Positions 46,617 to 64,000 of a stretch of 64,000 bases of DNA are shown in pieces. The notes under the pieces were generated by a model. It saw only the letters and a list, made by a program, of their open reading frames with translations. It ran no database searches and was not told where the DNA came from. Position 1 is the first letter of the stretch. The number at the start of each line of letters is the position of its first letter. The DNA comes from Sulfurimicrobium lacus (GTDB lineage: Bacteria; Pseudomonadota; Gammaproteobacteria; Burkholderiales; Sulfuricellaceae): the NCBI RefSeq assembly GCF_011764585.1, contig NZ_AP022853.1, positions 3,691,501-3,755,500 on the forward strand. Direction: 5' to 3'. A program made the translations under genes and the position numbers.

Positions 46617-47795
46617 CTAGTCATTGTTACTTAAACAATCCCATTTAAAATCGACAAGCACATCGCCCAAGTTTCCCTGCTGAAGCCGTCCAGTTCCAAA
46701 GTAATTGCTGTCGGAGACTGTGATATGGCACGTATTGGAAATTTTGTCGGTCAGTTCGCGGTTGACGATGCAGCTGGCCACGATGTCGTAATTGCCGGGA
46801 AGCAGCGGCAACTTGGGAACGGTACAGACGAACTGGCCCCGTTTCTTGTCCAGCGTCAATTCGGAGCGGATGATATCGCTGGGCAGGCCGAACAGGCGCG
46901 TACCCTTGCTTCCGGCGACGACGACGGTAAGGATAACGTCGTTGGATGGCTTTTCCAGATTGCTCTCGTAATCGAACACGATGCGGACCCCGCCTCCGGC
47001 AGGAACGCTGCTGATCGCGTTTCCGTCCAGGTCTTCGAGTTGCATACTGGTAAAGCGCACCAGACCAGAACCTGGGCGCCCCTTCGCTACACTCAGGTCT
47101 GCCTCCCCGGTTGGACCAAGCAATAGCGTGGTGTAGGCCCTGACTACCGTTTCGGTGGCGCCTTCGGTATGCACATTGCTGTTCTCGATCAGAATCGCCC
47201 GGTTACACAGGGATTGAATCGCCCCCATGCTATGGCTGACGAACAAGATGGTACGTTCCTGATGCTGGGTCAGCTGATCCATCTTGTTGAGACACTTTTC
47301 CTGAAATGCAATGTCGCCTACGGCCAGGACCTCGTCGACCATCAGGATTTCAGTGTCCAGATGGGCGGCGACAGCGAAGCTTAGGCGCGAACGCATGCCT
47401 GAGGAATAGGTCTTGACTCGAGAATTGATGAATTTTCCGATGCCGGCGAAATCCACGATTTCTTCGAATTTTGCATTGATCTCCTTCGACCGCATGCCGA
47501 GGATGGCGCCGTTGAGATAAACATTCTCGCGCCCGGTCAGATCCGGGTGGAAACCAGTGCCGGTTTCCAACAGGGTGCCTATGCGTCCCTTGATGCGGGC
47601 TTCGCCCTCGGTCGGGTCGGTGATGCGTGACAGCACGCGAAGCATCGTCGTTTTGCCGGCGCCGTTACGCCCGACTACACCCAACACGTCGCCGCGCTGT
47701 ACGTCGAAGTTGATATCACGGATTGCCCAATGGGGCTTGCCGCCGACCTGATAACTCTTGCCGAGGCCCCTGACGCTGATTACGGTGTCGCTCAT
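46617..47795 (-). CDS. wzt: O-antigen ABC exporter ATPase Wzt
   Basis: A 392-residue ATPase. ATG 47795 starts MSDTVISVRGLGKSYQVGG; the open frame upstream overlaps wzm and is not used. It has Walker A GRNGAGKTTM, signature YSSGMRSRLSF, and Walker B ILMVDEVLAVGD, typical of polysaccharide ABC-2 exporters. A C-terminal extension (about 250-392), beta-rich, matches the Wzt carbohydrate-binding domain that recognises the chain end in terminally capped O-antigens. Its partner wzm lies 17 bases upstream. Confidence 0.93.
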   Translation of the reverse strand: MSDTVISVRGLGKSYQVGGKPHWAIRDINFDVQRGDVLGVVGRNGAGKTTMLRVLSRITDPTEGEARIKGRIGTLLETGTGFHPDLTGRENVYLNGAILGMRSKEINAKFEEIVDFAGIGKFINSRVKTYSSGMRSRLSFAVAAHLDTEILMVDEVLAVGDIAFQEKCLNKMDQLTQHQERTILFVSHSMGAIQSLCNRAILIENSNVHTEGATETVVRAYTTLLLGPTGEADLSVAKGRPGSGLVRFTSMQLEDLDGNAISSVPAGGGVRIVFDYESNLEKPSNDVILTVVVAGSKGTRLFGLPSDIIRSELTLDKKRGQFVCTVPKLPLLPGNYDIVASCIVNRELTDKISNTCHITVSDSNYFGTGRLQQGNLGDVLVDFKWDCLSNND

Positions 47796-47812
47796 AAAAT
47801 CTCCATTCGACT

Positions 47813-48712
47813 CTACAGGGAATCGACCATGGTGCGCTCGGCACGCGTGAACGCAACCAGACCATAATAGATACCGATAACGATCATGATGGCAGCCAAA
47901 CCCACCGACCATAACGGTGGTGGTACCTCACCCCATAAGGACCAGCGAATGCCCTGTATCAGCGATGCCATCGGATTCATGTAATACAGGGTCAATAATT
48001 TTTTGGGCACCATGGAAATTGGATATACGCATGGCATGGCGTAGACCATCACACGCATGATCACGGGGAGCGCCATCATGATGTCGCGTCGCTCTATGGA
48101 ATGAGCTGCCAGCACCAGCCCCAAAGCAAACGACACCAGGGCCAGGCCGCCCAAAAAGAATGGAAAATACACAATGTTCCACCCTGGATAAACCCCGTAA
48201 ATCAACATCAGGCCAACAATCACCGCAAACGAGGCCAACAAATCCATGATGTTTACAAACAGCGATGTCAGCGGCACGATCAGTCGCGGGTAGTAGACCT
48301 TGCTCATAATTCCGGCGTTGTTCGCCAGCGACGACGCCGTATCCGATACTGTGCCCGAAAAAAACAGATACAGGCTGATACCCAAAAACACAAACAGCGG
48401 AAATGGAATGGGGTCGGTCTTTACTCCAACCATGTAGCCAAACACACCGACATAAACCAGGCACAGCAACAACGGCCGGAAGATGATCCAGCCATAGCCC
48501 ATCGACGTCGGGCGGTAGCGCCCACGGATCGAGCGCAGCACGAAATACTTCAACAAGTGTTTGCTTTCCCACACTTGGGGTAGTCCGAGGCGGCCAATCT
48601 TGTTGCTCGGTTTGATGACCACAACATCATCGCCTTCGATTGTTACGCCACCATCGAACACGGTGCGCGAATGCTCCGCACTGTCTTCTGGGTTCATTCT
48701 GGAATTCATCAT
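47813..48712 (-). CDS. wzm: O-antigen ABC exporter permease Wzm
   Basis: A 299-residue ABC-2 permease. A 50-residue cytoplasmic N-terminus is followed by six membrane helices. It shows RSIRGRYRPTSMGYGWIIFRPLLLCLVYVGVFG, FSGTVSDTASSLANNAGIMSKVYYPRLIVPL, characteristic of Wzm/KpsM proteins. Together with Wzt it exports complete undecaprenyl-linked chains. Directly precedes wzt on the same strand; 27 bases separate it from the glycosyltransferase upstream. Confidence 0.92.
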   Translation of the reverse strand: MMNSRMNPEDSAEHSRTVFDGGVTIEGDDVVVIKPSNKIGRLGLPQVWESKHLLKYFVLRSIRGRYRPTSMGYGWIIFRPLLLCLVYVGVFGYMVGVKTDPIPFPLFVFLGISLYLFFSGTVSDTASSLANNAGIMSKVYYPRLIVPLTSLFVNIMDLLASFAVIVGLMLIYGVYPGWNIVYFPFFLGGLALVSFALGLVLAAHSIERRDIMMALPVIMRVMVYAMPCVYPISMVPKKLLTLYYMNPMASLIQGIRWSLWGEVPPPLWSVGLAAIMIVIGIYYGLVAFTRAERTMVDSL

Positions 48713-50149: not shown

Positions 50150-51075
50150 GCTTTTCGAACTAGTTCCAAGCATGCGACGGCACGTGCCGCTGCGGCGAAA
50201 TCAGGGCCGAATTCCGGCGTGCGCACGATGTTGAAAAACTCAAGCTCCGCACATTCTTCGGGCTTGGCCGTATGCCAGCCGTCCGCAGCATGGCGGTAAT
50301 ACGTTTCAGAAACACATTCTCCGCCAAAGGATTTTTTGACATCGGCAATCTGCTCCGCACCAAATATTTGCAGCCAGTCCTGATCCTCGGCTTTGCCGTA
50401 GGGTACGGTTAGCAACAATCTCCCACCGGGCTTCAGCAAATTGTGGAAAGTCTTCATTACCCCGCGATAGGCGAACAAATCCTTCTCAGGCTGAGGCATC
50501 TTGAGGGTCACATCGTATGGCGGTTTGGGGATCGGCCACATTCCGATGTGTTCCACGGTGCTGATGCAAACGATGGCGTCGAAGATACCGTCCCGCAGCA
50601 CCGGCTCACGGAAATCGCCGTGCAGGTATGACAGCCGCGGGTCAAGGCGAACCGAATCCATTTCCAGCGAATAGATGATGATTTTTTGCTGACTAAGTTC
50701 GGGGGCATCAAGGAACATCGGCGTATTGAGCACCGAGCCGGCATCCAGAAGCAATCCCGGGCCTGGCTTCACACGCGAGATCGCCCACGGGCATTCGACT
50801 ACCCGCTCGTCGAGGCGCATACCAAACCCTTTTGGAAGGGGTTTCCCCTGGCGGAATATCTCCATCAGGCTCTTATCTGCGAGCGTCTCGATCATGAACA
50901 TGTTTTTGAACTTGGCATACCCCGGAGACCAGGGGATACGGCCATTCTTCTTATACTGCTCCACAAGGCTGAGAGAACTCGCGATGTTCTTGGCAGTGGC
51001 TACAGGATTGCCGCTGCTAAAAATTTTCTTGAGGCCCCGGCCAACGCGGGAAATCGCTTTATTTTTGCTTGTCAT
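50146..51075 (-). CDS. SAM-dependent methyltransferase-like protein
   Basis: A 309-residue cytoplasmic protein. Class I methyltransferase features are PGPGLLLDAGSVLNTP (motif I, about 105-120), SYLHGDFREP, FDAIVCISTVEHIGMW (motif IV) and NLLKPGGRLLLTVPYG. The first 70 residues form an extra N-terminal part. It overlaps the paralogous 51059 gene by 17 bases and the GT4 gene by ATGA. A sugar O-methyltransferase, perhaps a chain-terminating one, is a reasonable guess. Substrate unknown. Confidence 0.78.
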   Translation of the reverse strand: MTSKNKAISRVGRGLKKIFSSGNPVATAKNIASSLSLVEQYKKNGRIPWSPGYAKFKNMFMIETLADKSLMEIFRQGKPLPKGFGMRLDERVVECPWAISRVKPGPGLLLDAGSVLNTPMFLDAPELSQQKIIIYSLEMDSVRLDPRLSYLHGDFREPVLRDGIFDAIVCISTVEHIGMWPIPKPPYDVTLKMPQPEKDLFAYRGVMKTFHNLLKPGGRLLLTVPYGKAEDQDWLQIFGAEQIADVKKSFGGECVSETYYRHAADGWHTAKPEECAELEFFNIVRTPEFGPDFAAAARAVACLELVRKA

Positions 51076-52789
51076 GAAGCCCTAACTCCTCTGCCTGATA
51101 AATAAACGCAGAACCGTTGAGGATGCCATCGCAGATGACATCCAGCCCTTTGTGTACCCCGGGCAACAATTCATCCAGATTTTTAATTGAGATCTCAAAC
51201 GGTGGCCAAGCTTTTGGCGCTGGTTCCAGGAAAGGCAATGGCAACATGCGACGAAAGAAGAAATGGTAGGCATATTTTCGTGCCCGCTCAATCATCGCTG
51301 GGGGCATACGCTTCCCCAAAGGCAGCGTGTCCAGATGACGGAAATAGTCATCGGCATTCGATGCATCCAAGGTCATGCCCTTGTTGCGAATCCAAGCCTC
51401 CCCGCCGACAATCACAGGGATGCCGACACTGGTCAACTCCACACCGGTCTTGGTTCCGTAAATAATGACGCTATCGCACCGGTCCATCGCCGCATAGGTA
51501 CTGACCGTGCTTTCCGGCCCGATAATGAAGACATTCTTAGGCATATCCGGGAAGGCACTTCGGATTTCCTCAACAATTGGTTGCCGCGATACGGTTGAGC
51601 CCCCTGGCGGCGCCAATTCGCCGGGATGAACCCGGATCAACAACTGCAAGTCCGGGCGATCCCTGAAGTAAGCTACAGTGCGCATCACCCAATCGACCAT
51701 CCCCGGAAAGGCGTTGGCCGGATAGTGGAGCTGCGCGTCCCATACCACGTTGGTCAGCATGCCGATCACCGGGCGCTTCCAATCCAGCCCCACCGTGGCG
51801 GCAAAACGATCCATGTCATCGTCGGCATCTCGGTTAAACCAAATCCAGTCGCGACTACCTTTGCGGCGGCTCTCCAGATAATTGACGATTTCGGCTTCCC
51901 GATCCTTGGACCACGCCATGTCTTCCCAGTCGCTTGTGGGCTCGTCCATCAACGTATGGTGATAGGTATCGGTGTGGCTAAAAATCGCGCACTGCTTGCG
52001 ATAAGCCAGGTTCCACGATGCCGTGCGCACGTTGCGGCTTCGGCACGCGGCGCTGATAATGCCGTGAGGAACATAGATGCCGTGATTATTAACGACGGCA
52101 TCATACTTTTTATCCAGCAACAAGCGGTTAATACAGAACGCCGTCAGCAGCGACGATTCCAGATAGCGCCGAAGAACAGCCTCGCCCTCCGGCTCCAAGG
52201 ACAAATCGCCAACGCCATAATAGCGTAGAGCGCCAGCCATGGCGTGTTCGCCTATGGGCAGGCCATCCAGAACGTAGCTGGCGATATCGCCGGCCGGAAC
52301 GGAGATGGAAATATCTCGCGCCCTGGCTCGTTCGTCATCGCTGATATGTTCACTCATCTGCAGAATATTGATTCCTGGCGCGGAAAAAACCGCTTTCCCG
52401 GTGGCCATGCAGCCCGCACAAAACACGTCTTTTAGCTTGCCATCCGCCAACGCCGGGGGTTTAACCCCGGAAATTTTGGCGCGCTGGCAGCCGGGCATGG
52501 CAGCGTCACACAACAGAACATCGACTTTCGCTCCCCGCAGAGTCAAGGCGACATTGAGAGCGCTTTCCAGCACCGTGAACTGGGGATGCCCCCCAATGGC
52601 TGTAGCCATAAGGATGCGCGGACCCTCTTCGGCCTTCGCCAAAGAGTCTTTCCACAGGACCTCATTGGTGGCGACTACCGCTTCCCAATTGGGAAGCGCC
52701 GCTTTCGACTTCTGCTTGCCTGTCGCGATTTGTTGCTTTTCACGCAATGGCCGGACAAGTTGCTTGAGTTGACGGTATAGATTAAGCAT
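51059..52789 (-). CDS. Unknown protein with Cys4 motif, paralog of the gene at 40043
   Basis: A 576-residue soluble protein with the same layout as the 40043-41779 product. Conserved stretches include YGTKTGVELTSVGIPVIV, GEAWIRNKG, ARKYAYHFFFRRM, NAYRKQ-type (LAYRKQCAIFSHTDTYHHTLMDE) and VWDAQLHYPANAF. The cysteine set is C94-x6-C101-x22-C124-x2-C127, lacking the fifth cysteine of its paralog. The C-terminal half resembles GT-B capsule-type transferases. GAGGAG lies 10 bases before the ATG. I do not recognise a named function; perhaps a glycosyltransferase with a metal-bound N-terminal module. Confidence 0.75.
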   Translation of the reverse strand: MLNLYRQLKQLVRPLREKQQIATGKQKSKAALPNWEAVVATNEVLWKDSLAKAEEGPRILMATAIGGHPQFTVLESALNVALTLRGAKVDVLLCDAAMPGCQRAKISGVKPPALADGKLKDVFCAGCMATGKAVFSAPGINILQMSEHISDDERARARDISISVPAGDIASYVLDGLPIGEHAMAGALRYYGVGDLSLEPEGEAVLRRYLESSLLTAFCINRLLLDKKYDAVVNNHGIYVPHGIISAACRSRNVRTASWNLAYRKQCAIFSHTDTYHHTLMDEPTSDWEDMAWSKDREAEIVNYLESRRKGSRDWIWFNRDADDDMDRFAATVGLDWKRPVIGMLTNVVWDAQLHYPANAFPGMVDWVMRTVAYFRDRPDLQLLIRVHPGELAPPGGSTVSRQPIVEEIRSAFPDMPKNVFIIGPESTVSTYAAMDRCDSVIIYGTKTGVELTSVGIPVIVGGEAWIRNKGMTLDASNADDYFRHLDTLPLGKRMPPAMIERARKYAYHFFFRRMLPLPFLEPAPKAWPPFEISIKNLDELLPGVHKGLDVICDGILNGSAFIYQAEELGLHDKQK

Positions 52790-53652: not shown

Positions 53653-54309
53653 TTAAATGTTTCTAATGATTCGAGCCGGATTACCCGCAACGACTACTCC
53701 AGTTGGCAGATCCCGAGTGACGACTGCACCGGCACCCACCACTGTATTCTCGCCGATCGTCACACGGGGCAGCACCACAGCACCCGCGCCAATCATCACG
53801 TTGTTGCCGATTTTTACACAACCGCAAAGTGTCGCACCCGGTGCGAGATGCACCCCATCGCCCAACACGCATTCGTGATCCGCGGCAGCGCGGTGGTTGA
53901 CGATACAAGCTTCTCCCAAGTGTGCGTCAGAAGCCACAACTGCTCCGGCCAGCACTTGGGTGCCGGGGCCTAGCAAGGCCGTCTGGCACACCGAGGCATG
54001 GGGGTGCACGAGGGGTTCAACCCGCACATTATGCATTCGAAAGTATTCATGGACTGCCAACCGATCGCGACCATGTGCCCCCCCGATTGCGGCCAACCCA
54101 TAAAGATTGGTGCGATCTTGCTCCCCCTCGTACCAGCGAGCAAAGCCCTCCTTGGCGACATACAAGGGCACCCCAGGGATAACTGAAACCGCATTAGGAT
54201 TGTTATCGAAGAGTGCCACTACTTTTCCACCGCATAGTGCGATGAGACTTGCCAACACTTTTGCATGACCGCTACTGCCCCATAGGACATAGCGTGCGCA
54301 CTCAGCCAT
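53653..54309 (-). CDS. NeuD-family sugar N/O-acyltransferase
   Basis: A 218-residue protein. The N-terminal PglD-like Rossmann part has YVLWGSSGHAKVLASLI and the left-handed beta-helix (about 100-215) has hexapeptide repeats such as VNHRAAADHECVLGDGVHLAPGATLCG, with the likely catalytic histidine in NHRAAADHE. Members acetylate amino sugars (PglD, PerB) or sialic acids. Its start overlaps the aminotransferase stop by 8 bases, so N-acylation of that enzyme's amino-sugar product is likely. Confidence 0.88.
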   Translation of the reverse strand: MAECARYVLWGSSGHAKVLASLIALCGGKVVALFDNNPNAVSVIPGVPLYVAKEGFARWYEGEQDRTNLYGLAAIGGAHGRDRLAVHEYFRMHNVRVEPLVHPHASVCQTALLGPGTQVLAGAVVASDAHLGEACIVNHRAAADHECVLGDGVHLAPGATLCGCVKIGNNVMIGAGAVVLPRVTIGENTVVGAGAVVTRDLPTGVVVAGNPARIIRNI

Positions 54310-55411
54310 TTAGACACCCGCGAATGACATCCACTACCCGGTCCTGCTCCGCCGTCGTTATGTCATGAAAACTGGGCAAATTGATCGCACGTCCCGGAAT
54401 ATCCCAGGCGTTAAGATTTTGCGGTTGTTGGTCGAACATTGGCAGGCTTGATAATGGATGGAAAAACACCCTTGCATCAATGTTTTCGCTTGCGAAAACA
54501 CCTTGCAGGCGTTCTCGGGTTACCCCTGTTTGCGGGTCAAATACTACTGTAGGCATCCACGCCCCATTAACCGTACCTGCTGGTTCCGCATTAATGGATA
54601 AGCCCGGGAGGATCTCCAGGCAATTGCGGTAATACGAAAAAATTTCTCGCTTGCGGGTGGTCAATTCTTCAATTCGGTCAGTCTGCGCACACCCAATCGC
54701 TGCCTGGATGTTCGACATCTTGTACTTGAACCCAACCATGTCCGGCCAGAACTGCTTGGTTTGGCCTCGTGCTCGTCCATGATTACTCAGCGTAAGCACA
54801 TGCTCGTAAAGTTCCGGATCGTTGGTGACAAACATTCCACCTTCGCCCGTTGTAAGCGTTTTGGTGCCATGAAAGGAAAAAGTTCCAAATTTCCCCATCG
54901 ATCCAGCACGCTTTCCATGGTAGATCGAGCCAATTGCTTCTGCGGCATCTTCAATAACGGGGATGCCGTATTTATCACCGATGGCGAGCAGTTTGTCCAT
55001 CTCGCAAAGATTGCCATACAAGTGGACAGCGACGATTGCCTTGGTCCGGGGTGTGATCGCCCGCTCAACCAATTCCGGATCAAGGCACCAGGAGTCAGGC
55101 AAAATATCGACGAATACTGGTTTTGCGCCCAGATGAACTATCGGTGAGGCCGTAGCAATCCAATTGGTGTCAGCCATGATGACCTCATCACCCGGTCCGA
55201 TCCCCAATGCAGCCATACCCATGTGGAGCGCCCCCGTGCAACTGGATGTGGCGATGGCATAATTGACGCCGAGGTGGGCTTTGAAGGCCTCTTCAAAACG
55301 ATTGATGTACTCGTAGCATTTCTCGCCCCAACCATTCGCGGCAGCATCGGATGCGTAACGAACCTCTAACTCGGTGATGGATGGCTTAGTGTAGTGAATG
55401 CGGGCTTTCAT
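54302..55411 (-). CDS. DegT/DnrJ/EryC1/StrS PLP aminotransferase
   Basis: A 369-residue sugar aminotransferase. The PLP lysine is K184 in SFHGTKTLTTGEGG, the pattern of perosamine-synthase-like C4 aminotransferases; D155-type residue lies in IEDAAEAIGS. The lysine excludes the 3-dehydrase RfbH, which has histidine there, even though CDP-sugar genes are adjacent. It probably converts a 4-keto-6-deoxy sugar nucleotide to the 4-amino form with glutamate. ATGA overlap with the C-methyltransferase gene. Confidence 0.88.
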   Translation of the reverse strand: MKARIHYTKPSITELEVRYASDAAANGWGEKCYEYINRFEEAFKAHLGVNYAIATSSCTGALHMGMAALGIGPGDEVIMADTNWIATASPIVHLGAKPVFVDILPDSWCLDPELVERAITPRTKAIVAVHLYGNLCEMDKLLAIGDKYGIPVIEDAAEAIGSIYHGKRAGSMGKFGTFSFHGTKTLTTGEGGMFVTNDPELYEHVLTLSNHGRARGQTKQFWPDMVGFKYKMSNIQAAIGCAQTDRIEELTTRKREIFSYYRNCLEILPGLSINAEPAGTVNGAWMPTVVFDPQTGVTRERLQGVFASENIDARVFFHPLSSLPMFDQQPQNLNAWDIPGRAINLPSFHDITTAEQDRVVDVIRGCLNG

Positions 55412-56631
55412 GCGACCACCAACTTCGGCACCGCCGTGACAAACCTCGTACCAAGGGTCGCAAGCTTGGCGTTTTGTTGTTCAACCTCTGCAGCTATGTT
55501 CCAGGGCAGGATCACCAGATAGTCGGGACGCTGTTCCAGCAGGGCAGCCGGAGTGAGAATGGGAATGTGGCTGCCTGGCATGAATTTACCTTGTTTGGCA
55601 GTTGCGGCATCACAGACAAACGGCAGCAGGTCCGGCTTCACGCCGGCATAGTTGAGCAGCGTATTACCCTTGGCAGCAGCACCGTAGGCGGCCACCTTTT
55701 TACCCGCTCGTTTTTGTTCAATCAGAAAAGACAAGAGGTCGTCCTTGACGCGATCTGCCTTGGCCTGAAAGTTTTGATATGTGGCGAGCGTTTGCAGGCC
55801 AAGCTGCGCCTCCTCTGCCAGCATCGCTCCAACGGCAGGAGAAACCTGACGAGCGTCTTCTCCATGGCAACCATACACTCGCAAGCTGCCACCATGGGTG
55901 GGCAATTCTTCCACGTCCCATATGCGCAATCCGGCCATTTTGAAGATGCGGTCCACCGTATAAAGGGAAAGATATGAAAAATGCTCGTGGTAAACCGTAT
56001 CGAATTGGGTGTGTTCGAGCAACCTCATTAAATGAGGAAATTCCAGGGTAATGGTGCCACCAGGTTTTAACGCCGCCTTCAGGCCACGGGTAAAATCGTT
56101 GATGTCAGGCACATGAGCATAGACGTTGTTTCCGGCAATTAAATCAGCTTGCTGGCCGTTAGCGGCCAACTGTTTGCCCAGCTGCTCGCCGTAAAACTCA
56201 CGCATGACGGGGATGCCAAGTTTCTCTGCTGCGGCAGCGGTACTGGCGGTGGGCTCGATACCCAGGCAAGGAATACCTGCAGCCACAAAGTTCTTGAGGA
56301 GGTAGCCATCGTTGGAAGCCACTTCGATGACCAGGCTGTCTTGCGTGAGCTGCAGCTGGCGGATCATCTTTTCCGTATACCTTGCAGCATGAGCCAGCCA
56401 ACCGGAAGAGGTGCTGGAGAAGTAAGCGTAGTCCGGGCTGAACAGCTCGTCGGCCTGCGCGTAGTCCTCGGTCTGGACTAACCAGCATTGACCGCAGACT
56501 TTGACTTTCAGTGGATAGTATTTTTCTGGTCTGGTCAGGTCTTCGCGGGTAAGGTATGCGTTCGAAGGGGGAGCGAAGCCGAGATCAAGGAAAGTGTGCT
56601 CCAGCGGAGAGGAGCAATGACGACATTTCAC
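55408..56631 (-). CDS. Sugar C-methyltransferase (TylC3/NovU type)
   Basis: A 407-residue three-part protein. The zinc-binding N-terminal domain has CRHC near 3-6 and CGQC near 46-49. The SAM domain shows LVIEVASNDGYLLKNFV, IEPTAS and FDTVYHEHFSYLSLYTV. The C-terminal part contains KVAAYGAAAKGNTLLNY. This is the layout of sugar 3-C-methyltransferases that act on 4-keto deoxy sugar nucleotides. It overlaps both neighbours by ATGA within the CDP-sugar set. Confidence 0.88.
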   Translation of the reverse strand: MKCRHCSSPLEHTFLDLGFAPPSNAYLTREDLTRPEKYYPLKVKVCGQCWLVQTEDYAQADELFSPDYAYFSSTSSGWLAHAARYTEKMIRQLQLTQDSLVIEVASNDGYLLKNFVAAGIPCLGIEPTASTAAAAEKLGIPVMREFYGEQLGKQLAANGQQADLIAGNNVYAHVPDINDFTRGLKAALKPGGTITLEFPHLMRLLEHTQFDTVYHEHFSYLSLYTVDRIFKMAGLRIWDVEELPTHGGSLRVYGCHGEDARQVSPAVGAMLAEEAQLGLQTLATYQNFQAKADRVKDDLLSFLIEQKRAGKKVAAYGAAAKGNTLLNYAGVKPDLLPFVCDAATAKQGKFMPGSHIPILTPAALLEQRPDYLVILPWNIAAEVEQQNAKLATLGTRFVTAVPKLVVA

Positions 56632-57188
56632 AGCATCATTCCTTTAAATTGGTGGTCCAGCAGAGGGTGTTGCGCATCTCGAGATGACAGTTCGGCAATG
56701 TCCAGCGGCCATGAAATCGATAGCTTGGAATCATTCGGATTCAGTCCAGCCTCCGCTTCGGGCGTGTAGAAGGCTGTATGCAGGTAGAGAAGTTCACAGT
56801 CGTCATGAATAGTCTGGAAACCGTGGGCGAAACCTTCAGGTATCAGCAGTGCACGTCGGTTGGCGGCGGAAAGCTCTTCGGCGTGCCATTGCAAAAATGT
56901 CGGGGATCCAGCACGCAAATCAACGGCCACATCCCAGATGGCGCCACGCAGGCAAGTCACGAGTTTCATTTCGCAATGCGGCGGTTGCTGGAAATGCATG
57001 CCGCGCACCGTGCCTGACTTTTGCGTAAATGTGTGGTTGATCTGGGCGATGGGCTTGCGCCAGCCGGCAGCAGCCAGCTCTTCCGCGCAAAAGAGACGAG
57101 AGAGGAAACCTCGGCTGTCGCCCAGTTGCTGACGCTCGATAATTTTCAGGTCGACGATAGGCGTATCGAGAATGGCGAAGCGACTCAT
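56628..57188 (-). CDS. RmlC-type 4-keto-6-deoxy sugar epimerase
   Basis: A 186-residue cupin of the dTDP-4-dehydrorhamnose 3,5-epimerase family. Visible are LGDSRGFLSRLF, QINHTFTQKSGTVRGMHFQ with the catalytic histidine, WDVAVDLRAGSPTF, and LIPEGFAHGFQT. The usual segment after EAGL reads NPNDSK rather than the common WNDP form. With CDP-sugar genes around, it may act on CDP-4-keto-6-deoxyglucose as a 3-, 5- or 3,5-epimerase. No rmlA, rmlB or rmlD is present in the window. Confidence 0.85.
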   Translation of the reverse strand: MSRFAILDTPIVDLKIIERQQLGDSRGFLSRLFCAEELAAAGWRKPIAQINHTFTQKSGTVRGMHFQQPPHCEMKLVTCLRGAIWDVAVDLRAGSPTFLQWHAEELSAANRRALLIPEGFAHGFQTIHDDCELLYLHTAFYTPEAEAGLNPNDSKLSISWPLDIAELSSRDAQHPLLDHQFKGMML

Positions 57189-58273
57189 GATGCCTGGTTA
57201 GAATTATTGACCGCTTCATAGGCGGCGATGTCTGCTTCGCATGCTACCCGGACGTCGATACCGTCATGCTGCTGACGATACCAATGCATGGTACGCTGCA
57301 CAGCGTCGACCAGAGACCAGCGTGGTTTAACACCCAGCACTGTGCGGGCCTTGGAGATTTCAAGGGCCAGCCAGCCAGCTTCATGCGGGCCATCGCTGCC
57401 GTCACCCCAATGAATTTCTCCCTGGCCATAGGCCTTTTGTGCCAGCTGTACCACTTCGCGCACAGACGCGGCCTCATGGGTTTCCGGGCCGAAGTTGTAA
57501 GCGCCCGCCAATTTGGGGTTTTGCCAGAGTTGCTCGGCAAGCTTGATGTAGCCGGAGAGAGGCTCTAATACGTGCTGCCAGGGCCGAATGGATTGCGGAC
57601 GTCGAATCTGTAGCGGCTGGTTTCCATTCCAGGCCCGAATTGCGTCCGGAATCAGGCGGTCTTCTGACCAGTCTCCTCCTCCAATGACGTTGCCTGCTCG
57701 AGCCGAGGCGACGGCAATGTTTTTCTCCGCCAGGTAAGAATCTCGGTAACTGGCAATAACAATTTCCGCTGCCGCCTTGCTGGCGCTGTAGGGATCGTAG
57801 CCGCCAAGCGCATCGGTCTCACGGTAAGGGTACGGCTGTTCAAGATTGTGATAAACCTTGTCAGTGGTTATGGCAACAACGGCGCGGACCGAATCGATAT
57901 CGCGCAAGGCATCAAGCACATTTGCAGTGCCTTGAATATTGGTAGCCAAGGTTGCCAGTGGATCACGATAGCTGGCCCGTACCAAAGCTTGCGCGGCAAA
58001 ATGGAAAATAATTTCCGGATGGGCCTTATCAATCAATACCGCGAGCGCTGCTGCATCCCGGATATCGCAGATATGGCTTTTGGTAAGCGTTTCAATGCCA
58101 GCCAAATCGAAGAGATTGGGCGTAGTCACTGGGGACAGGCTGATGCCGGTCACATGAGCGCCGAGCCTGTGCAACCAAAATGCCAGCCAGGAACCTTTAA
58201 AACCGGTATGGCCGGTGAGCAGAACGCGCTTGCCGCGCCAGAAGGCAGGCATCGGATTAACCGAATTCGTCAT
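57185..58273 (-). CDS. rfbG: CDP-glucose 4,6-dehydratase
   Basis: A 362-residue extended SDR. It has the NAD site VLLTGHTGFKGSWLAFWL, FHFAAQALVRASYRDPLAT, ITTDKVYHN, catalytic YSASKAAAE, SARAGNVIGGGDWSEDRLIPD and RPWQHVLEPLSGY, all characteristic of RfbG. It makes CDP-4-keto-6-deoxyglucose. ATG 58273 overlaps the rfbF TGA (ATGA); earlier in-frame starts up to 58309 lie in rfbF. Confidence 0.94.
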   Translation of the reverse strand: MTNSVNPMPAFWRGKRVLLTGHTGFKGSWLAFWLHRLGAHVTGISLSPVTTPNLFDLAGIETLTKSHICDIRDAAALAVLIDKAHPEIIFHFAAQALVRASYRDPLATLATNIQGTANVLDALRDIDSVRAVVAITTDKVYHNLEQPYPYRETDALGGYDPYSASKAAAEIVIASYRDSYLAEKNIAVASARAGNVIGGGDWSEDRLIPDAIRAWNGNQPLQIRRPQSIRPWQHVLEPLSGYIKLAEQLWQNPKLAGAYNFGPETHEAASVREVVQLAQKAYGQGEIHWGDGSDGPHEAGWLALEISKARTVLGVKPRWSLVDAVQRTMHWYRQQHDGIDVRVACEADIAAYEAVNNSNQAS

Positions 58274-59043
58274 TGCCAAATTTTCCATGGCGCCTTGCCG
58301 GCCCCCCAAAGCTCTTCAAGGTGATTCTTTTCTCGCAAGGTATCCATCGGCTGCCAGAAACCCAGATGCTCAAAAGCCATCATTTCACCCATCTCCGCCA
58401 GCTTGATAAGCGGCTCTCCTTCCCAGCTGCTGTGATCGCCCTCTATGAAATCAAGACATTTCGGAGAAAGTATAAAAAAACCACCATTAATAAGTCCGCC
58501 ATCGCCACGCGGCTTTTCCGCAAACCCCGTCACTTGGTCGCCCGACCTTTCCAGCGCGCCATAGCGGCCGGGAGGCTGCACGGCCGTGACAGTAGATAAT
58601 TTTCCATGCTGGCGATGAAATTCGATGGATGCCCGAATATCGACATTGCTCACCCCATCACCATAGGTAAAGCAAAACGCCTCCTCGTTTTTAATGTAAT
58701 CGGCCACACGCTTGAGGCGTCCGCCCGTGAGAGTGTCTTCGCCGGTATCGACCAGGGTCACTTTCCAGGGCTCAGCTTTCTTCTGATGCACTTCCATACG
58801 GTTGTCCGCCATGTCGAAAGTGACATCGGACATGTGCAGGAAGTAGTTGGCAAAGTACTCCTTGATGAGATAGCCCTTGTAGCCGCAGCAAATCACGAAT
58901 TCATTTACCCCATGGGCCGAATACATTTTCATGATGTGCCAGAGAATCGGCTTGCCACCGATTTCAATCATTGGCTTGGGTTTCAGGTAAGTTTCCTCGG
59001 AAATGCGGGTCCCGAGGCCACCGGCGAGGATGACGGCTTTCAC
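58270..59043 (-). CDS. rfbF: Glucose-1-phosphate cytidylyltransferase
   Basis: A 257-residue nucleotidyltransferase making CDP-glucose from CTP and glucose-1-phosphate. It starts KAVILAGGLGTRISEETYLKPKPMIEIG (nucleotide loop with metal-binding lysine), and has CCGYKGYLIKEYF, TYGDGVSNVDI, PPGRYGAL and FWQPMDTLREKN, the RfbF pattern that sets it apart from RmlA. It is first gene in the coupled rfbF-rfbG-epimerase-methyltransferase-aminotransferase-NeuD series. 13 bases separate it from the transketolase-like gene. Confidence 0.95.
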   Translation of the reverse strand: MKAVILAGGLGTRISEETYLKPKPMIEIGGKPILWHIMKMYSAHGVNEFVICCGYKGYLIKEYFANYFLHMSDVTFDMADNRMEVHQKKAEPWKVTLVDTGEDTLTGGRLKRVADYIKNEEAFCFTYGDGVSNVDIRASIEFHRQHGKLSTVTAVQPPGRYGALERSGDQVTGFAEKPRGDGGLINGGFFILSPKCLDFIEGDHSSWEGEPLIKLAEMGEMMAFEHLGFWQPMDTLREKNHLEELWGAGKAPWKIWQ

Positions 59044-59056
59044 GGATCAATCCTTC

Positions 59057-61000
59057 CTATTTGTTGAGTTTGGCGCGAATAACGGCAGATATTGATGCGC
59101 TGTCCAGGCCATGCACTTTCAGGATTTCCGGATTTGTGCCACAGGCCGGAATTTCACCGATACCAACTCTGAACAGCTTCTTTTCTGACAAGGCTTCTTT
59201 CGCAATAATCTCGGCGATCCGATCCCCCTGCCCACCAACGAGATAGTGGTTGTCGAGCGAGAATATGTCCATGCACGTTCCCACTTCGCGGGTCAGCCAT
59301 TCGGCATCGATGTTATTCAGCCAGGGCAGGTTGATTACCTTGACCGACAAGCCTTTCTCTTCGCGCAAAGACTGCGCTGCCTGCACCGCCGCGGAAAGCA
59401 GCACCGGGCCATAGGTGATTAGCACGGCATCCTTCCCCTCGGTCAAGGTGACACCTTTACCGAGTTGTGGTTTGTAGTCCGAGGGCAGTTCAAACGGGAT
59501 TACCCAGGGCAGGCTTACCAGTCGCAGGTAGCTGCTCCCGGCGCTCTGGTTGACAGCCCAGTCGAGAAGCATGGCGACCTCCGCCTCACAGGAAGGCTCC
59601 ATGAGCGTTAGCCCAGGTATGCCGCCAAGCGCGGAAATGTCGCGCACGGCCTGGTGGGAATGCCCCGGTCCACCTGGAACGACGCCGGCCAGCGAACCGA
59701 CATAGATGATTTTTTCCAGTTCGGTGGCATTGTTGTATATCTGTTCGTTCGGGCGGGAGGAAAGAAAACAGGCAAACGAGTGGACAACCGGCAGCAAGCC
59801 TTGCAGGGCCATGCCGCCTGCCTGAGAAACCATGTCCTGTTCGGCAATTCCACATTCAACGAATCGATCCGGAAATTCCTTCTGGAACGGGATCAGGCCG
59901 GTGTCCAGGATAAGATCGGCGTCCAGGGCGACGATGTTTGGATTGCGCCGCGCCTGCTCGATTAAAGCATTCGAATAGGCCTGAATCAGTCGTTGTGGAT
60001 TTTCCGGCAACACCGCTGCGGGGCGGATGATGGTTTCGAGTTCCAGTTGGGCCGCACCGGCTGTGTTCAGCTTGGCGTTCGCCGTATCAATCAGTTCCTG
60101 CGCTGCCTTGACGTAAGCTTCGTCGCTGGGCGCGCCACTGTGGAACTTGTAGAACTCCACGTCGGAATCGATGGAGGTGTGTTCCATAAAGGAAACACCC
60201 TTACCCTTGATGGTGTCGGCAATAATGACCTTGGGCTTATCAGTAACATTTTTGGTAGCCGCGAGCGTTTGGGCGAGAGCGGCAAGGTCGTTACCATCGC
60301 AGCGACTGACATGCCAGCCGAAGGCAGCCAGCTTGGCCTCAAGATCGCCAAGATCGCTGACCTTGGCGACAAGTGTGTCCGACTGCAACTTGTTGTGATC
60401 GATAATGACCGTAAGCTCGTGCAGTTTGTTATTGGCGGCGGAAACCAGCGATTCCCAGAACTGGCCTTCCTGCAGCTCGCCATCTCCGGTCAGGACGAAG
60501 ACATTTCCGGAGCGCTTGCGCAGACGGTTGGCGAAGATCATGCCCTTGGCCTTGGAAACCCCCATGCCCAGCGAGCCGGTATTGGTGACGATATTGGGCG
60601 TGGCGATATCCGGATGACCGGGCAGACCACCCAGTTTTCGCAGGGTATGAATCAGGTCGAAATCGAGCCGGCCCAGTCCGATGAACGTGTTGTAAAGACC
60701 AGGTGCATCGTGCCCCTTGGACGAGAAAAAAATGTCCTGTGGGGAGACTTCATCGCCCTCAGGTGCAATCCGGAGTTCGTTAAGCTGCAACCATGACATG
60801 ATATCCATACTGCTGAAGCTGCTACCGATGTGGCCGGATCCTGCGCGGGCGATCATGTAAAGGGTGTTGATCCGGCAGAGAGCGGCAAACAGGCCGGTTT
60901 TTTCTACCGGGGGCACGGGCAGAGCTCGAACCCGCTCAAATTCCTTGAAAGGTACGTAATACAGGGTACCGCTAACGGCTTCTCCAATTTGATCGCCCAC
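59057..61000 (-). CDS. Transketolase-like TPP enzyme of the sugar cluster
   Basis: A 647-residue protein combining transketolase N-terminal and C-terminal halves. TPP motif GDG at 172-174 with DHNK at 201-204; GHIGSSFSSMDI near 56-67; catalytic glutamate in FVECGIAEQD (E387); SFACFLSSRPNEQIYNN. I choose GTG 61000 because GGAG lies 6 bases ahead and the longer frame (to 61057) overlaps the upstream gene. It is far from the housekeeping tkt at 13486-15471 in sequence, and similar genes in other clusters are often split in two. It may transfer a two-carbon unit to or from a sugar precursor. Confidence 0.82.
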   Translation of the reverse strand: MGDQIGEAVSGTLYYVPFKEFERVRALPVPPVEKTGLFAALCRINTLYMIARAGSGHIGSSFSSMDIMSWLQLNELRIAPEGDEVSPQDIFFSSKGHDAPGLYNTFIGLGRLDFDLIHTLRKLGGLPGHPDIATPNIVTNTGSLGMGVSKAKGMIFANRLRKRSGNVFVLTGDGELQEGQFWESLVSAANNKLHELTVIIDHNKLQSDTLVAKVSDLGDLEAKLAAFGWHVSRCDGNDLAALAQTLAATKNVTDKPKVIIADTIKGKGVSFMEHTSIDSDVEFYKFHSGAPSDEAYVKAAQELIDTANAKLNTAGAAQLELETIIRPAAVLPENPQRLIQAYSNALIEQARRNPNIVALDADLILDTGLIPFQKEFPDRFVECGIAEQDMVSQAGGMALQGLLPVVHSFACFLSSRPNEQIYNNATELEKIIYVGSLAGVVPGGPGHSHQAVRDISALGGIPGLTLMEPSCEAEVAMLLDWAVNQSAGSSYLRLVSLPWVIPFELPSDYKPQLGKGVTLTEGKDAVLITYGPVLLSAAVQAAQSLREEKGLSVKVINLPWLNNIDAEWLTREVGTCMDIFSLDNHYLVGGQGDRIAEIIAKEALSEKKLFRVGIGEIPACGTNPEILKVHGLDSASISAVIRAKLNK

Positions 61001-61011
61001 AATATGCTCCG

Positions 61012-61767
61012 TTATTCGTGAATAGGGTAAATGGATCGGTTGATGCTGGGCAAGCAAGCCTCGCCTTTAGCAAGATAGTGCTCTGCCAACAACCAGTCCT
61101 CAGGTTCGTTAATGTCGAAGCCTTCCAGTCCCTGACTGACAAAGGGAATGATCGCCTCCCCGGCGATGCTGCCCGATTCGAGCGGCACACGGGACCAGGC
61201 AATCTCGAGGCTGGCATCTTGCGCGTAAATCTCGGGTAAGGCAGCGTACTGGCTGCTGTGCCAGGGTGTGTTACCGTTGGTGAAGGGCATGACGGGCAAC
61301 ATGCGTTGGCCGCGTATCACCCACATCTTTCCAGGGTGTTGTTTGCATTTTTCGATGGCGCGCAGGGAATCCGCGCTCTTGTCTTGTGTAAACAGCTTCC
61401 AGGCCCGTTGAATTGTTTCTGGCAGGCGGAACGGGCTGGTGGGGCGAAGAATGCTGAAAATCTCGTAATCTCTGCCTTGTTCCTTCAGAGCGTTTAGCAT
61501 CCAGACAACCCACTCGATGTCGGGCGATTTATCGCCAGAAATCTCCGATGAGCGCAGAAATGGCACCTCCGCCCCATAATAGCGGGCGACATCGGCATAC
61601 TGTTCGCTGTCCGTCGCACAGATCACTGCATCGAAGACGCCGCTTTCGATGGCGGCGCACACGGTGTAGGCAAGCATCGGGTGCCCGCCCAACGGCTTGA
61701 TGTTCTTGTTGGGGACCCGCTTGGAGCCGGATCGGGCAGGAATGAAGGCGACGGATTTTGGCTTCAT
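61012..61767 (-). CDS. CMP-sugar synthetase (acylneuraminate cytidylyltransferase family)
   Basis: A 251-residue NeuA/SpsF-type nucleotidyltransferase. The nucleotide loop reads FIPARSGSKRVPNKNIKPLGGHPML, followed by AVICATDSEQYADVARYYGAEVPFLR and LRPTSPFRLPETI. Such enzymes activate nonulosonic or other ulosonic acids as CMP esters. No NeuB or NeuC homolog is in the window. It is 7 bases downstream of the aldehyde dehydrogenase gene and 11 bases upstream of the transketolase-like gene. Confidence 0.85.
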   Translation of the reverse strand: MKPKSVAFIPARSGSKRVPNKNIKPLGGHPMLAYTVCAAIESGVFDAVICATDSEQYADVARYYGAEVPFLRSSEISGDKSPDIEWVVWMLNALKEQGRDYEIFSILRPTSPFRLPETIQRAWKLFTQDKSADSLRAIEKCKQHPGKMWVIRGQRMLPVMPFTNGNTPWHSSQYAALPEIYAQDASLEIAWSRVPLESGSIAGEAIIPFVSQGLEGFDINEPEDWLLAEHYLAKGEACLPSINRSIYPIHE

Positions 61768-61774
61768 GGCGTAG

Positions 61775-63247
61775 TCAGATCAGATTGCTGCGCGTAAGGA
61801 AGGAGATGTTTTTCAACTCGGAGTACACGTCCAGCGCCTCAACCCCTGGCTCTCGCGTGCCGTTGCCGGATGCGCCGAATCCGCCAAATGGCATGTGCGG
61901 TTCGCTGCCGAAGGTACCGAGGTTAATGTTGGCCACGCCGGCTCTTACCCGTTGAGCGAACCACATGGCCCGATCGACATTGCGGGTATGAATCGCCGCC
62001 GTGAGACCGTATTCGGTGGCGTTGGCGAGTGCCAGGGCATCCGCCAGGTCATCGACGGGATGCAGCGTGACGACCGGGCCGAATACTTCCTTGCAACTGA
62101 GTTCGGCCGAGGGCTGAAGCCCTTCGATGACGGTGGGCTGGATGTAATATCCATTGGCGAGTTCGGGGCTTGACGGTGCTGCGCCGCCGCACAGGATACG
62201 CCCACCTTCTGTCTTGGCGTAATCGATGGCCGCAAGGATTGCCTGCTGTTGACGTTTGTTGATGACCGGACCCAGGTCGCAGCTGGCGCTTACCCCAAGT
62301 TTCAGACTTTGTGCCTTGACCACCAACTTGTCGCGAAAGGCTTCGTATACCTCTCTGAATACAAGAATGCGGCTGCCTGCAGCACAACGCTGTCCAGCGT
62401 TGCTAAAGGCCGAAAGTGATGCCCAGTGGACCGCTTGATCAAGGTCGGCATCGTCACATACCACGAACGGATTCTTGCCGCCGAGTTCGAGCGATATGCG
62501 AGCCAGGCGCTTGCCAGCCACTTCTGCGATCCAGCGGCCGACGCCGGTGGATCCAGTAAAGCTGATCACTGCGACGCGGGGGTCTTCGACCAAGGCGGCG
62601 CCAGCCGGTTGTCCTCGTCCCTGAACAACGTTGAACACACCATCCGGCAGTCCCGCTTCCTTGGCTATCTTGCCAAACAGCAGGGCAATTTGCGGCGAAT
62701 CCTCAGCCGCCTTCAACACCACGGTATTGCCACAAACCAAGGCCGGAAAAGTTTTCCAGGCGATATTCGCGATAGGTGTGTTGGCAGGAACAATCAGGCC
62801 GGCGATACCGCGCGGCTGCCTGACAGTATGGCTATATTTACCTGGCGTACCGGAGGTAAGAGAACGGCCGTAAAGGCGCATGCCTTCGCCGGCGAAGTAT
62901 TCGGCCTGAAGAATGGCGCCTCCCACTTCACCCTTGGCATCCTGCGGGGGTTTTCCGGTTTCCACGGCGATGCACTCGCCAAGTTCGTCGGCGCGCCGTT
63001 TCATTCCCGCCACGATCTCCGCGAGAATCTGGCCACGCCGGACCGGGGTGAACTCGGACCAGGTCAGGAATGCTTCGCCTGCTGCCGCGATGGCACCTTG
63101 CACGTCGGCGGCTGACGAGTCGGCAACCCGGCATAGCAGTTCGCTATTGTGCGGGTTGAACTTGTCCAGCCATGCATCGTTCTCGGGCAGACTTTCGCAG
63201 CCATTAACCCAGTTAGGTACGCGAGGGGTGTTGTTGGTCATGGTCAA
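61775..63247 (-). CDS. NAD(P)-dependent aldehyde dehydrogenase
   Basis: A 490-residue ALDH-superfamily enzyme. Catalytic C288 in NAGQRCAAGSR, general base E255 in LELGGKN, cofactor loop FTGSTGVG near 230-237 and terminal FGGFGASGNGTREPGVEAL are intact. Substrate is not evident. The ATG overlaps the SDR gene stop by ATGA, so it is coupled to a sugar-cluster gene set and may oxidise a sugar aldehyde to the acid. Confidence 0.87.
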   Translation of the reverse strand: MTMTNNTPRVPNWVNGCESLPENDAWLDKFNPHNSELLCRVADSSAADVQGAIAAAGEAFLTWSEFTPVRRGQILAEIVAGMKRRADELGECIAVETGKPPQDAKGEVGGAILQAEYFAGEGMRLYGRSLTSGTPGKYSHTVRQPRGIAGLIVPANTPIANIAWKTFPALVCGNTVVLKAAEDSPQIALLFGKIAKEAGLPDGVFNVVQGRGQPAGAALVEDPRVAVISFTGSTGVGRWIAEVAGKRLARISLELGGKNPFVVCDDADLDQAVHWASLSAFSNAGQRCAAGSRILVFREVYEAFRDKLVVKAQSLKLGVSASCDLGPVINKRQQQAILAAIDYAKTEGGRILCGGAAPSSPELANGYYIQPTVIEGLQPSAELSCKEVFGPVVTLHPVDDLADALALANATEYGLTAAIHTRNVDRAMWFAQRVRAGVANINLGTFGSEPHMPFGGFGASGNGTREPGVEALDVYSELKNISFLTRSNLI

Positions 63248-64000
63248 ATCGCCGTCCAGCCGCCATCAATGACGAGATTTGCACCTGTCATGTAGCGAGA
63301 TGCGGAACTGGCCAGGAAAAGCACCGCGCCGTTGTAGTCGTCGACGTTCGCCATATGCCCGACAGGTATGCGCCCGCAATAGACGTCAAGAAAAGCTTGT
63401 TCCTGGTTGTTGAATACGCCAGCGATGGTGAGCGTGTTCACCCGAACGTTTTTCTTGGCCCAATAGACAGCGAGATAGCGGGTGAGGTTGAGTATGCCGG
63501 ACTTCGATGCGGAGTACGCGACGGGTTTGTAAAAGGTCTCGCCGCGCTGACGACGGTATTCATAAAGATTCTGGTCGGGCGATACCACCCCGTAAATCGA
63601 GGCGACATTGATAATTGAACCCTTGCCCGCCTTTGCCATGGCAGCGCCGAAGACCTGGCAGCAAAGATAGACACCTTTGAGGTTGACGTCGATCACTTTG
63701 TCCCATGAGGCTTCCGGATAGTCCTCGAATGGGCCATTCTCTTCCGGAGGCGCAGAAGGCGGGGAATCAATCGCAGCGTTGTTGATCAGGACGGTAGGCG
63801 TTCCGAACTTGCTGGCAATTTCAACCAGGGCTTGTTGCAGCGAAGCCTTGGCGGTGACGTCCGACGCACAAAAAAGGTAATTATCCGGGTATTGCCCAGC
63901 CAGTGATTCGCTTCCCGCCGACGGCCGGACATCCAGCCCAACAACGCGTGCGCCACGTTCAAGAAACGCCTTGGCGTACTCGCCGCCCAATTGGCCGGAC
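63244..64000 (-). CDS. SDR oxidoreductase, 5' end cut by window edge
   Basis: About 252 residues are visible and the frame is open through the right edge. The first visible residues, GQLGGEYAKAFLERGARVVGLD, are the second half of the TGxxGxLG cofactor loop, so only about 10-15 residues are missing. NNAAIDSPP, SIINVASIYG and catalytic YSASKSG are intact. The extended C-terminus MTGANLVIDGGWTAI is typical of classical SDRs. It is the first visible gene of the SDR-ALDH-CMP synthetase-transketolase group, and more may lie beyond the window. Confidence 0.87.
   Translation of the reverse strand, partial: SGQLGGEYAKAFLERGARVVGLDVRPSAGSESLAGQYPDNYLFCASDVTAKASLQQALVEIASKFGTPTVLINNAAIDSPPSAPPEENGPFEDYPEASWDKVIDVNLKGVYLCCQVFGAAMAKAGKGSIINVASIYGVVSPDQNLYEYRRQRGETFYKPVAYSASKSGILNLTRYLAVYWAKKNVRVNTLTIAGVFNNQEQAFLDVYCGRIPVGHMANVDDYNGAVLFLASSASRYMTGANLVIDGGWTAI

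Follow-up and report, generated by a model that had tools for sequence, protein, structure and literature searches.

An apparently undescribed route to bacterial surface sugars in which an unusual transketolase would trim a sialic-acid-like sugar

Background

The Kdn and sialic acid 9-phosphate pathway comprises a synthase, a HAD phosphatase and a synthetase that activates the sugar with cytidine monophosphate (CMP), and among the transketolases the sulfo-transketolase and the split transketolases are special forms with non-standard substrates. Here we describe a six-gene operon of Sulfurimicrobium lacus that appears to extend a NeuB-CMP-ulosonate pathway by a transketolase step. It lies at the right end of a 64,000-nucleotide stretch of contig NZ_AP022853.1 (positions 3,691,501 to 3,755,500 of the forward strand; this whole stretch is termed the window, and positions are given on its scale). 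The operon encodes a NeuB-family synthase, a phosphatase, a short-chain dehydrogenase/reductase (SDR), an aldehyde dehydrogenase (ALDH), a CMP-sugar synthetase and a transketolase-like thiamine pyrophosphate (TPP) enzyme, termed TK below. That we are dealing with a real and widely conserved pathway cassette, apparently undescribed, is to our minds close to certain; it seems to represent a route to surface sugars, not described before as far as we can tell, in which a sialic-acid-like sugar is trimmed by an unusual transketolase.

The cassette is like the 9-phosphate pathway in uniting a NeuB/SAF synthase, a KdsC-type HAD phosphatase and a CMP-synthetase in one operon, and differs from it in the added SDR, ALDH and TK, in the lack of NeuC and in the replacement of Arg314 of meningococcal NeuB. 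TK is set apart from the sulfo- and split transketolases by being a single chain with different residues. A further parallel is the L-tartrate route via 5-ketogluconate, in which gluconate 5-dehydrogenase makes the ketol: as proposed for the cassette, a ketol is placed beside a terminal CH2OH, two carbons are removed by a transketolase, and the resulting aldehyde is oxidized. Unlike the cassette, that route starts from a ketogluconate, involves neither NeuB nor CMP activation, and relies on an engineered housekeeping transketolase. An excerpt of a 2025 report (PMC12016104) gives the E. coli TktA variant R358I/H461S/R520Q a 55.3% enhanced activity in converting 5-ketogluconate to tartaric semialdehyde, and cites an earlier suggestion that transketolase together with succinate semialdehyde dehydrogenase might convert 5-ketogluconate to L-tartaric acid.

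The predicted product of the cassette falls in the same class, the C7 ulosaric acids, as the 3-deoxy-D-lyxo-heptulosaric acid (Dha) of plant rhamnogalacturonan II, the enzymes and nucleotide form of which are listed as unknown in an excerpt of PMC12168206. Rhizobiaceae lipopolysaccharide cores with 3-deoxy-lyxo-heptulosaric acid have also been reported, judging from a title in a reference list. In the open-licence PMC literature we found no paper on the cassette; PMC11766843, PMC12342839 and PMC5047448 deal, in the portions available, with other subjects, and the heptulosaric acid literature found there consists mostly of plant and pectin papers.

Results and discussion

An operon that crosses the edge of the window

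The genes of TK, the CMP-synthetase, the ALDH and the SDR are borne out as tightly packed open reading frames (ORFs) on the minus strand, the first three complete and the SDR cut by the window edge, and the unit continues to the right of the window:

59057..61057, minus strand: TK, matching Pfam Transketolase_N, Transket_pyr and Transketolase_C
61012..61767, minus strand: CMP-sugar (ulosonate) synthetase of the PseF/NeuA/KdsB superfamily (CTP_transf_3)
61775..63247, minus strand: ALDH, by profile matches
63244..64000, minus strand, the whole gene starting at 64056: SDR oxidoreductase, gluconate-5-dehydrogenase/KduD-like, by profile matches
64072-64650, outside the window: KdsC-like HAD phosphatase, by profile matches
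64583-65614, outside the window: NeuB/SAF synthase of 343 residues, by profile and Pfam matches

The SDR thus starts 56 bases beyond the window end, and to the right of position 64000 the phosphatase is reached after 72 bases and the NeuB-family synthase after 583. A previous reading of the window from its letters alone (the sequence-only reading) had correctly grouped TK with a NeuA-like synthetase, an ALDH and an SDR. It had also taken this set to be without NeuB and suggested a route bypassing the phosphoenolpyruvate (PEP)-dependent NeuB reaction; both ideas have to be given up, the apparent absence having arisen because the operon runs over the window edge. Of the neuB-neuC pair just outside the window that would have counted against that reading, only the first member is present: NeuC has no match above the family cut-off in this genome (best 67.8 bits against 235.9). 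Beyond NeuB come ORFs that, on inspection by eye, were assigned to GDP-mannose and dTDP-rhamnose.

TK is also distinct from the housekeeping transketolase, as had been supposed. The latter is a separate gene of the same window (tkt, about 13492-15459, minus strand), and in a genome scan with TIGR00232 it scores 1005.5 bits, against 108.1 for the best stretch of TK. The genome holds another transketolase-like gene (G000:C1:1659407-1660966), in a 1011-residue open frame with human-type active-site residues. At E 1e-100, TK was found in 1 of 80 genomes of close relatives, namely S. lacus itself, and in none of the 79 others; the cassette is probably an accessory set in this species. The G+C content is 49-58% over window positions 34001-64000 and 57-64% over positions 1-32000, and from this drop and the absence of TK in relatives the polysaccharide region looks horizontally acquired.

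Recurrence of the cassette across bacterial phyla

A scan of genome contigs with TK returned 308 relatives by pattern. The 80 best of these, S. lacus and a Streptomyces plasmid locus make up the 82 loci used here, a sample that is biased toward close relatives of TK. Co-occurrence was counted in the 60 loci longer than 14 kb (long loci), leaving aside the 22 of 14 kb or shorter, with presence thresholds of our own choice and profiles built from the same loci. Family members with less than 75% coverage or less than 150 bits were dropped, as were own-genome duplicates (L001, L086-L093), locus L005 and the ALDH of L047, which has an interrupted frame.

By the record titles the loci belong to Pseudomonadota, Acidobacteria, Chloroflexi, Cyanobacteria, Bacteroidetes, Nitrospirae, Planctomycetota, Myxococcota and others; culturable carriers include Methylomonas koyamae, Magnetospirillum fulvum and Thalassospira povalilytica. 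At the long loci TK is accompanied by NeuB in 55, the CMP-synthetase in 55, the SDR in 54 and the ALDH in 50, and all four partners are found together with TK in 48/60, so that the grouping first noticed in the window does recur elsewhere; the order NeuB-SDR-ALDH-CMP-synthetase-TK holds in 41 of these 48 full loci. Seven of the 48 have a distant CMP-synthetase only, and under a strict threshold for this enzyme (>300 bits) the full set is present in 41/60. A KdsC-type phosphatase occurs in 30/60 long loci and a different, Gph-type HAD phosphatase placed after TK in 12/60, and the two never occur together (0/60; Fisher p 1e-4, a value that ignores the kinship of the loci), as if one phosphatase had taken the place of the other.

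Whole genomes were searched for 11 loci lacking a partner, with 4 complete ones as controls: NeuB was present in 11/11 and an ALDH relative in 8/11. NeuB lies elsewhere in the genome in all three searched cases that lack it at the TK locus (L024, L029, L030), and an ALDH relative lies elsewhere in 3 of the 6 searched genomes without one at the locus (L064, L029, L030). One Moorena genome has a NeuB-SDR-ALDH block apart from one of CMP-synthetase, TK and HAD phosphatase. Pairwise identities correlate with those of TK at 0.81 for the ALDH (n=58), 0.76 for the CMP-synthetase (n=65), 0.71 for the SDR (n=64) and 0.59 for NeuB (n=61), figures with no null model behind them that lend weak support.

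Several loci depart from the common form. On a plasmid of Streptomyces sp. NBC_01237 (L004:10732-25437), NeuB, SDR and TK lie in a secondary-metabolite-like cluster with a glyoxalase-family protein, an FMN-dependent dehydrogenase and an aminotransferase (by eye a hydroxyphenylglycine-like set), an AMP-ligase, a P450 and an O-methyltransferase. A 908-residue ORF at this locus suggested an SDR-TK fusion, an idea we rejected: no ORF matched both enzymes, and the SDR is encoded in an overlapping frame. The TK of Thalassospira povalilytica (L048:10001-12700) bears a C-terminal FkbM methyltransferase domain, in frame by translation. Separate methyltransferases, labelled FkbM-like by eye, fall into one group with members in 12 loci, and the cassette sugar or a neighbouring sugar may be O-methylated. 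The cassette is also carried by a contig labelled as a Bifidobacterium breve metagenome-assembled genome (L052), the neighbours of which cluster with those on Acidobacteria contigs; this contig is probably mis-binned.

TK keeps its TPP site and has lost the phosphate pocket of transketolases

In TK the Pfam domains PF00456, PF02779 and PF02780 all score above their gathering thresholds. At the level of equivalogs it falls below the cut-offs of transketolase (NF004559, 381.7 of 488 bits; TIGR00232, 145.9 of 682) and of 1-deoxy-D-xylulose-5-phosphate synthase (DXS; TIGR00204, 176.3 of 466). Whether translation starts at the TTG is doubtful: the monomer model (overall pLDDT 85) is of low confidence over residues 1-28, and most homologs align only from about residue 16-32.

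H26, H66, H100, H261, E411 and H473 (E. coli transketolase numbering) are kept in all 82 TKs, and the inactive TPP site that could have undone the sequence-only reading was seen in none of them. We take the first four to be the catalytic histidine set of transketolase and E411 its TPP-activating glutamate. Other positions are altered throughout the family. R358 is lost in 82/82 (I or V in 73, with I in 35, and other non-Arg residues in 9), S385 is D and H461 is L in every member, D469 has given way to P (80 members) or T (2 members), and R520 is lost in all (S in 79, P in 2, T in 1). As a control, the housekeeping tkt of the window keeps R358, S385, H461, D469 and R520 at the E. coli numbers. 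R358, S385, H461 and R520 presumably bind the substrate phosphate in transketolase, and because these ligands are lost we place TK after the phosphatase and not in the making of a phosphorylated acceptor for NeuB. In an excerpt of PMC10787763, S385 and R520 are counted among the residues of the active-site entrance, and H461 and R358 are mentioned in connection with docking. All three positions changed in the engineered TktA (PMC12016104) coincide with natural changes in TK, and at one of them a part of the family has the same residue (I at R358). If the pathway proposed below is right, D385, L461 and P/T469 of TK could serve as a genome marker for an acidic sugar in bacterial surface glycans.

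A plasmid of Solidesulfovibrio carbinolicus (L005:5621-21841) carries, in a pseB/pseC/pseF/NeuB cluster, a split transketolase that was left out of the counts; here too a transketolase is paired with nonulosonate genes. This enzyme keeps R358, H461, D469 and R520, and has Gly at the S385 position.

Catalytic residues of the partner enzymes

The NeuB of the cassette has the NeuB and SAF domains of Pfam and falls below the N-acetylneuraminate synthase cut-off (TIGR03569, 249 of 400 bits). The equivalents of E25, K53, Q55, K129, S213, H236 and D247, which we take to be active-site residues, are present in 61/61 members; N184 is changed and E134 is D in all 61, and N74 is kept in 54. At the position of Arg314 of meningococcal NeuB, which presumably reads the N-acetyl group, 61/61 cassette synthases have S, I or A. 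We had considered whether a Lys at the F288 position might point to an acceptor bearing a phosphate, an idea that was dropped because K is also found there in two NeuB paralogs of these loci.

The remaining enzymes likewise fall below the cut-offs of the known families. The KdsC-type phosphatase (112.5 of 208 bits with PRK09484, KdsC; 88.2 of 180 with the KDN-9-phosphate phosphatase model) has the Asp/Lys motif residues in 31/31. The SDR, the better models of which include gluconate-5-dehydrogenase and KduD, has Ser-Tyr-Lys in 64/64. The ALDH, with alpha-ketoglutaric semialdehyde dehydrogenase as its first model, has the catalytic Cys288 and Glu254 in 58/58 aligned members. The CMP-synthetase is nearest PseF (136.5 bits against a cut-off of 205.7). 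Judged by these kept residues, the cassette enzymes look active.

A chain-shortening pathway and its alternatives

The genes, their co-occurrence, the intact catalytic residues, the altered TK pocket and the transferase-like model of a neighbouring protein, GTcap, are direct observations, and they can be read together as one pathway of the following steps: 1) From a hexose-6-phosphate and PEP, the NeuB synthase would form a nonulosonic acid 9-phosphate by condensation. 2) The HAD phosphatase would take off the phosphate. 3) The SDR would oxidize the C8 hydroxyl, turning C9-C8-C7 into a 2-ketose head (HOCH2-CO-CHOH-). 4) TK, without the usual phosphate pocket, would remove C8-C9 as a hydroxyacetyl unit and pass it to some acceptor, leaving an aldehyde at C7. 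5) The ALDH would turn this aldehyde into a carboxylate, so that a 3-deoxy-hept-2-ulosaric acid results. 6) The CMP-synthetase would activate this acid, with CMP-3-deoxy-hept-2-ulosaric acid as the predicted product. 7) GTcap, which is KpsC-like, would transfer the sugar onto an exported polysaccharide. We infer all of the substrates, the order of steps 3 to 6 and the product. The core of the sequence-only reading, in which a two-carbon TPP step, oxidation to the acid and activation with CMP all concern a single ulosonic-type sugar, is thereby retained as the best account, with NeuB now at the head of the route.

The stereochemistry was derived by hand. Read from C9, 8-keto-Kdn would present the D-threo ketol head of xylulose-5-phosphate and fructose-6-phosphate, the natural transketolase donors. 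A Kdn start would yield an L-arabino product, and glucose-6-phosphate as the NeuB acceptor an L-lyxo one; the C7 ulosaric product could still close a pyranose ring through O6. That the six-gene operon makes one CMP-activated ulosonic-type sugar by such tartaric-acid-like chain shortening is a proposal to which we give an even chance. The wider claim is more tentative and in our estimate falls somewhat short of even, namely that in many phyla bacteria produce a C7 ulosaric acid, activated with CMP, from a nine-carbon Kdn-type acid, two carbons being cut off by a dedicated TK devoid of the phosphate pocket, as a new nonulosonic branch with its own transferase. If true, it would add a chain-shortening branch to sialic-acid-type sugar biosynthesis and provide natural transketolases for free keto acids, of use for tartaric-type biocatalysis. 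A rationale for the biosynthesis of heptulosaric acids would be gained as well, that of the plant one still being given as unknown in the excerpted PMC12168206. Even with the chemistry wrong, a cross-phylum cassette of conserved order, on which the open-licence literature yielded no paper, would remain of note.

A number of points weigh against chain shortening. A Kdo-type (C8) start fits the TK stereochemistry too, but would leave no O6 for a pyranose. The usual acceptors of the C2 unit of transketolase are phosphorylated. The engineered TktA gains modestly on 5-ketogluconate, on which the wild type is already somewhat active. The plant Dha is D-lyxo, whereas a Kdn start in the cassette predicts L-arabino. 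Neither phosphatase is present in 18/60 long loci. The ALDH is absent from the TK locus in 10/60, with none at E 1e-90 in 3 of 6 whole genomes (L034, L060, L063), and because of these gaps the oxidation to an acid is not universal. The Streptomyces plasmid locus has no ALDH, CMP-synthetase or phosphatase of the cassette type. In the family of the Rhizobium locus, TK was found at E 1e-150 in at least 2 of 247 genomes, the starting genome included (5 candidates scored per genome); with TK in so few, the cassette does not explain the heptulosaric acid of Rhizobiaceae, and as a source of that core sugar it is a weak candidate. Finally, the TK monomer model aligns with DXS at Z 37.4 and a root-mean-square deviation (rmsd) of 2.6 over 541 residues, and with transketolase at Z 35.6 and rmsd 19.8 over 568 residues.

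Such DXS-like domain packing, as predicted for the monomer, and the intact TPP residues would fit TK as a carboligase, which would add a C2 unit from a ketose, hydroxypyruvate or pyruvate to an ulosonic aldehyde and so form a longer or branched acid, with the SDR reducing the new ketone. DXS-like carboligation is possible from the model; we nonetheless think this reading unlikely, since the TK-type His100 is kept in 82/82, D469, which we take to be present in DXS as well, is Pro or Thr in 82/82, the ALDH of the same operon would compete for the aldehyde acceptor, and the profile score, below cut-off in both cases, is higher for transketolase (381.7 bits) than for DXS (176.3 bits).

TK might also act ahead of NeuB, making by ketol removal or transfer an unusual aldose phosphate that NeuB condenses with PEP, the SDR and ALDH coming in later. 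There is a precedent in 3-amino-5-hydroxybenzoate biosynthesis, where a dedicated transketolase feeds the amino-DAHP synthase; the linkage of TK and NeuB in 55/60 long loci and the NeuB-SDR-TK set of the Streptomyces plasmid, devoid of cassette-type ALDH and CMP-synthetase, would both fit. A phosphatase in 42/60 loci implies, however, a phosphorylated NeuB acceptor, and TK has lost R358, S385, H461 and R520 in all 82 members, so that we regard this order as rather unlikely. A less specific view is that the cassette makes another modified nonulosonic acid, with the SDR, ALDH and TK working in another order or at another position. All substrates above are predicted ones, and the CMP-synthetase is nearest PseF yet below its cut-off; we hold this for quite unlikely, as, unlike chain shortening, it leaves the loss of the phosphate pocket and the SDR and ALDH partners unexplained. 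Highly improbable is the alternative of the sequence-only reading that TK puts a two-carbon branch on the CDP-4-keto-6-deoxyhexose of rfbF and rfbG: these genes directly follow TK in 4/82 loci, 3 of the 4 without a close CMP-synthetase relative at the usual place, but they occur in just 5/82 loci (22 of the 82 are short, and in a few the genes may be cut off), and the C-methyltransferase, RmlC-like epimerase and DegT aminotransferase of the window are enough to make a separate branched amino sugar.

Candidate transferase, export and CDP-sugar genes downstream

Further along the minus strand of the window lie a candidate for step 7 of the chain-shortening pathway, an export pair and a second sugar set:

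51059..52789, minus strand: putative CMP-ulosonate glycosyltransferase (GTcap) of 576 residues, with a predicted fold nearest KpsC Kdo transferases
47813-48712, minus strand: ABC-2 permease, read by eye from the translation
46617-47912, minus strand: ABC-2 ATPase, extended at its C-terminus, likewise identified by eye
58270-59043, minus strand: rfbF, of the CDP-glucose-derived sugar set (53653..59043), as are the following
57185-58309, minus strand: rfbG
56628-57188, minus strand: rmlC-like gene
55408-56631, minus strand: C-methyltransferase
54302-55411, minus strand: DegT aminotransferase
53653-54309, minus strand: NeuD-type acetyltransferase

GTcap lies 6 kb downstream of the cassette genes, has no Pfam or NCBIfam match, and belongs to a family found in 30/60 long loci and 38/82 overall. 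Its model (pLDDT 88) has a predicted fold that resembles the CMP-Kdo transferases KpsC and, less distinctly, WbbB, from which it differs by an identity of only about 10-13% and its larger size. In VIA the first five rows are taken by KpsC Kdo transferases (Z 14.5-15.4, rmsd 4.0-4.2, 265-291 residues aligned). The WbbB rows, at Z 12.2-12.8, come next and score much the same as other GT-B-like enzymes (an unrelated epimerase has 12.9, with larger rmsd), and in Foldseek UDP-GlcNAc epimerases come first by E-value, with TM-scores lower than those of KpsC. On this modelled fold GTcap is likely a CMP-ulosonate transferase. WbbB is a chain terminator, and by analogy such a role is possible for GTcap too. 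Pairwise identities with GTcap correlate at 0.73 for TK (n=31) and 0.36 for NeuB (n=24), with the same lack of a null model. Four cysteines (C94, C101, C124, C127) are invariant in 22 aligned members of the family and are perhaps a metal site. The ABC-2 pair is likely the export route of the glycan, and suggests an exported O-antigen or capsule.

The CDP-glucose-derived set probably makes a separate sugar. In three other loci (L037, L039, L049) the ALDH is directly followed by TK and rfbF-rfbG, with no close relative of the cassette CMP-synthetase in between; two of these loci have weak CMP-synthetase matches at a distance of about 11 kb.

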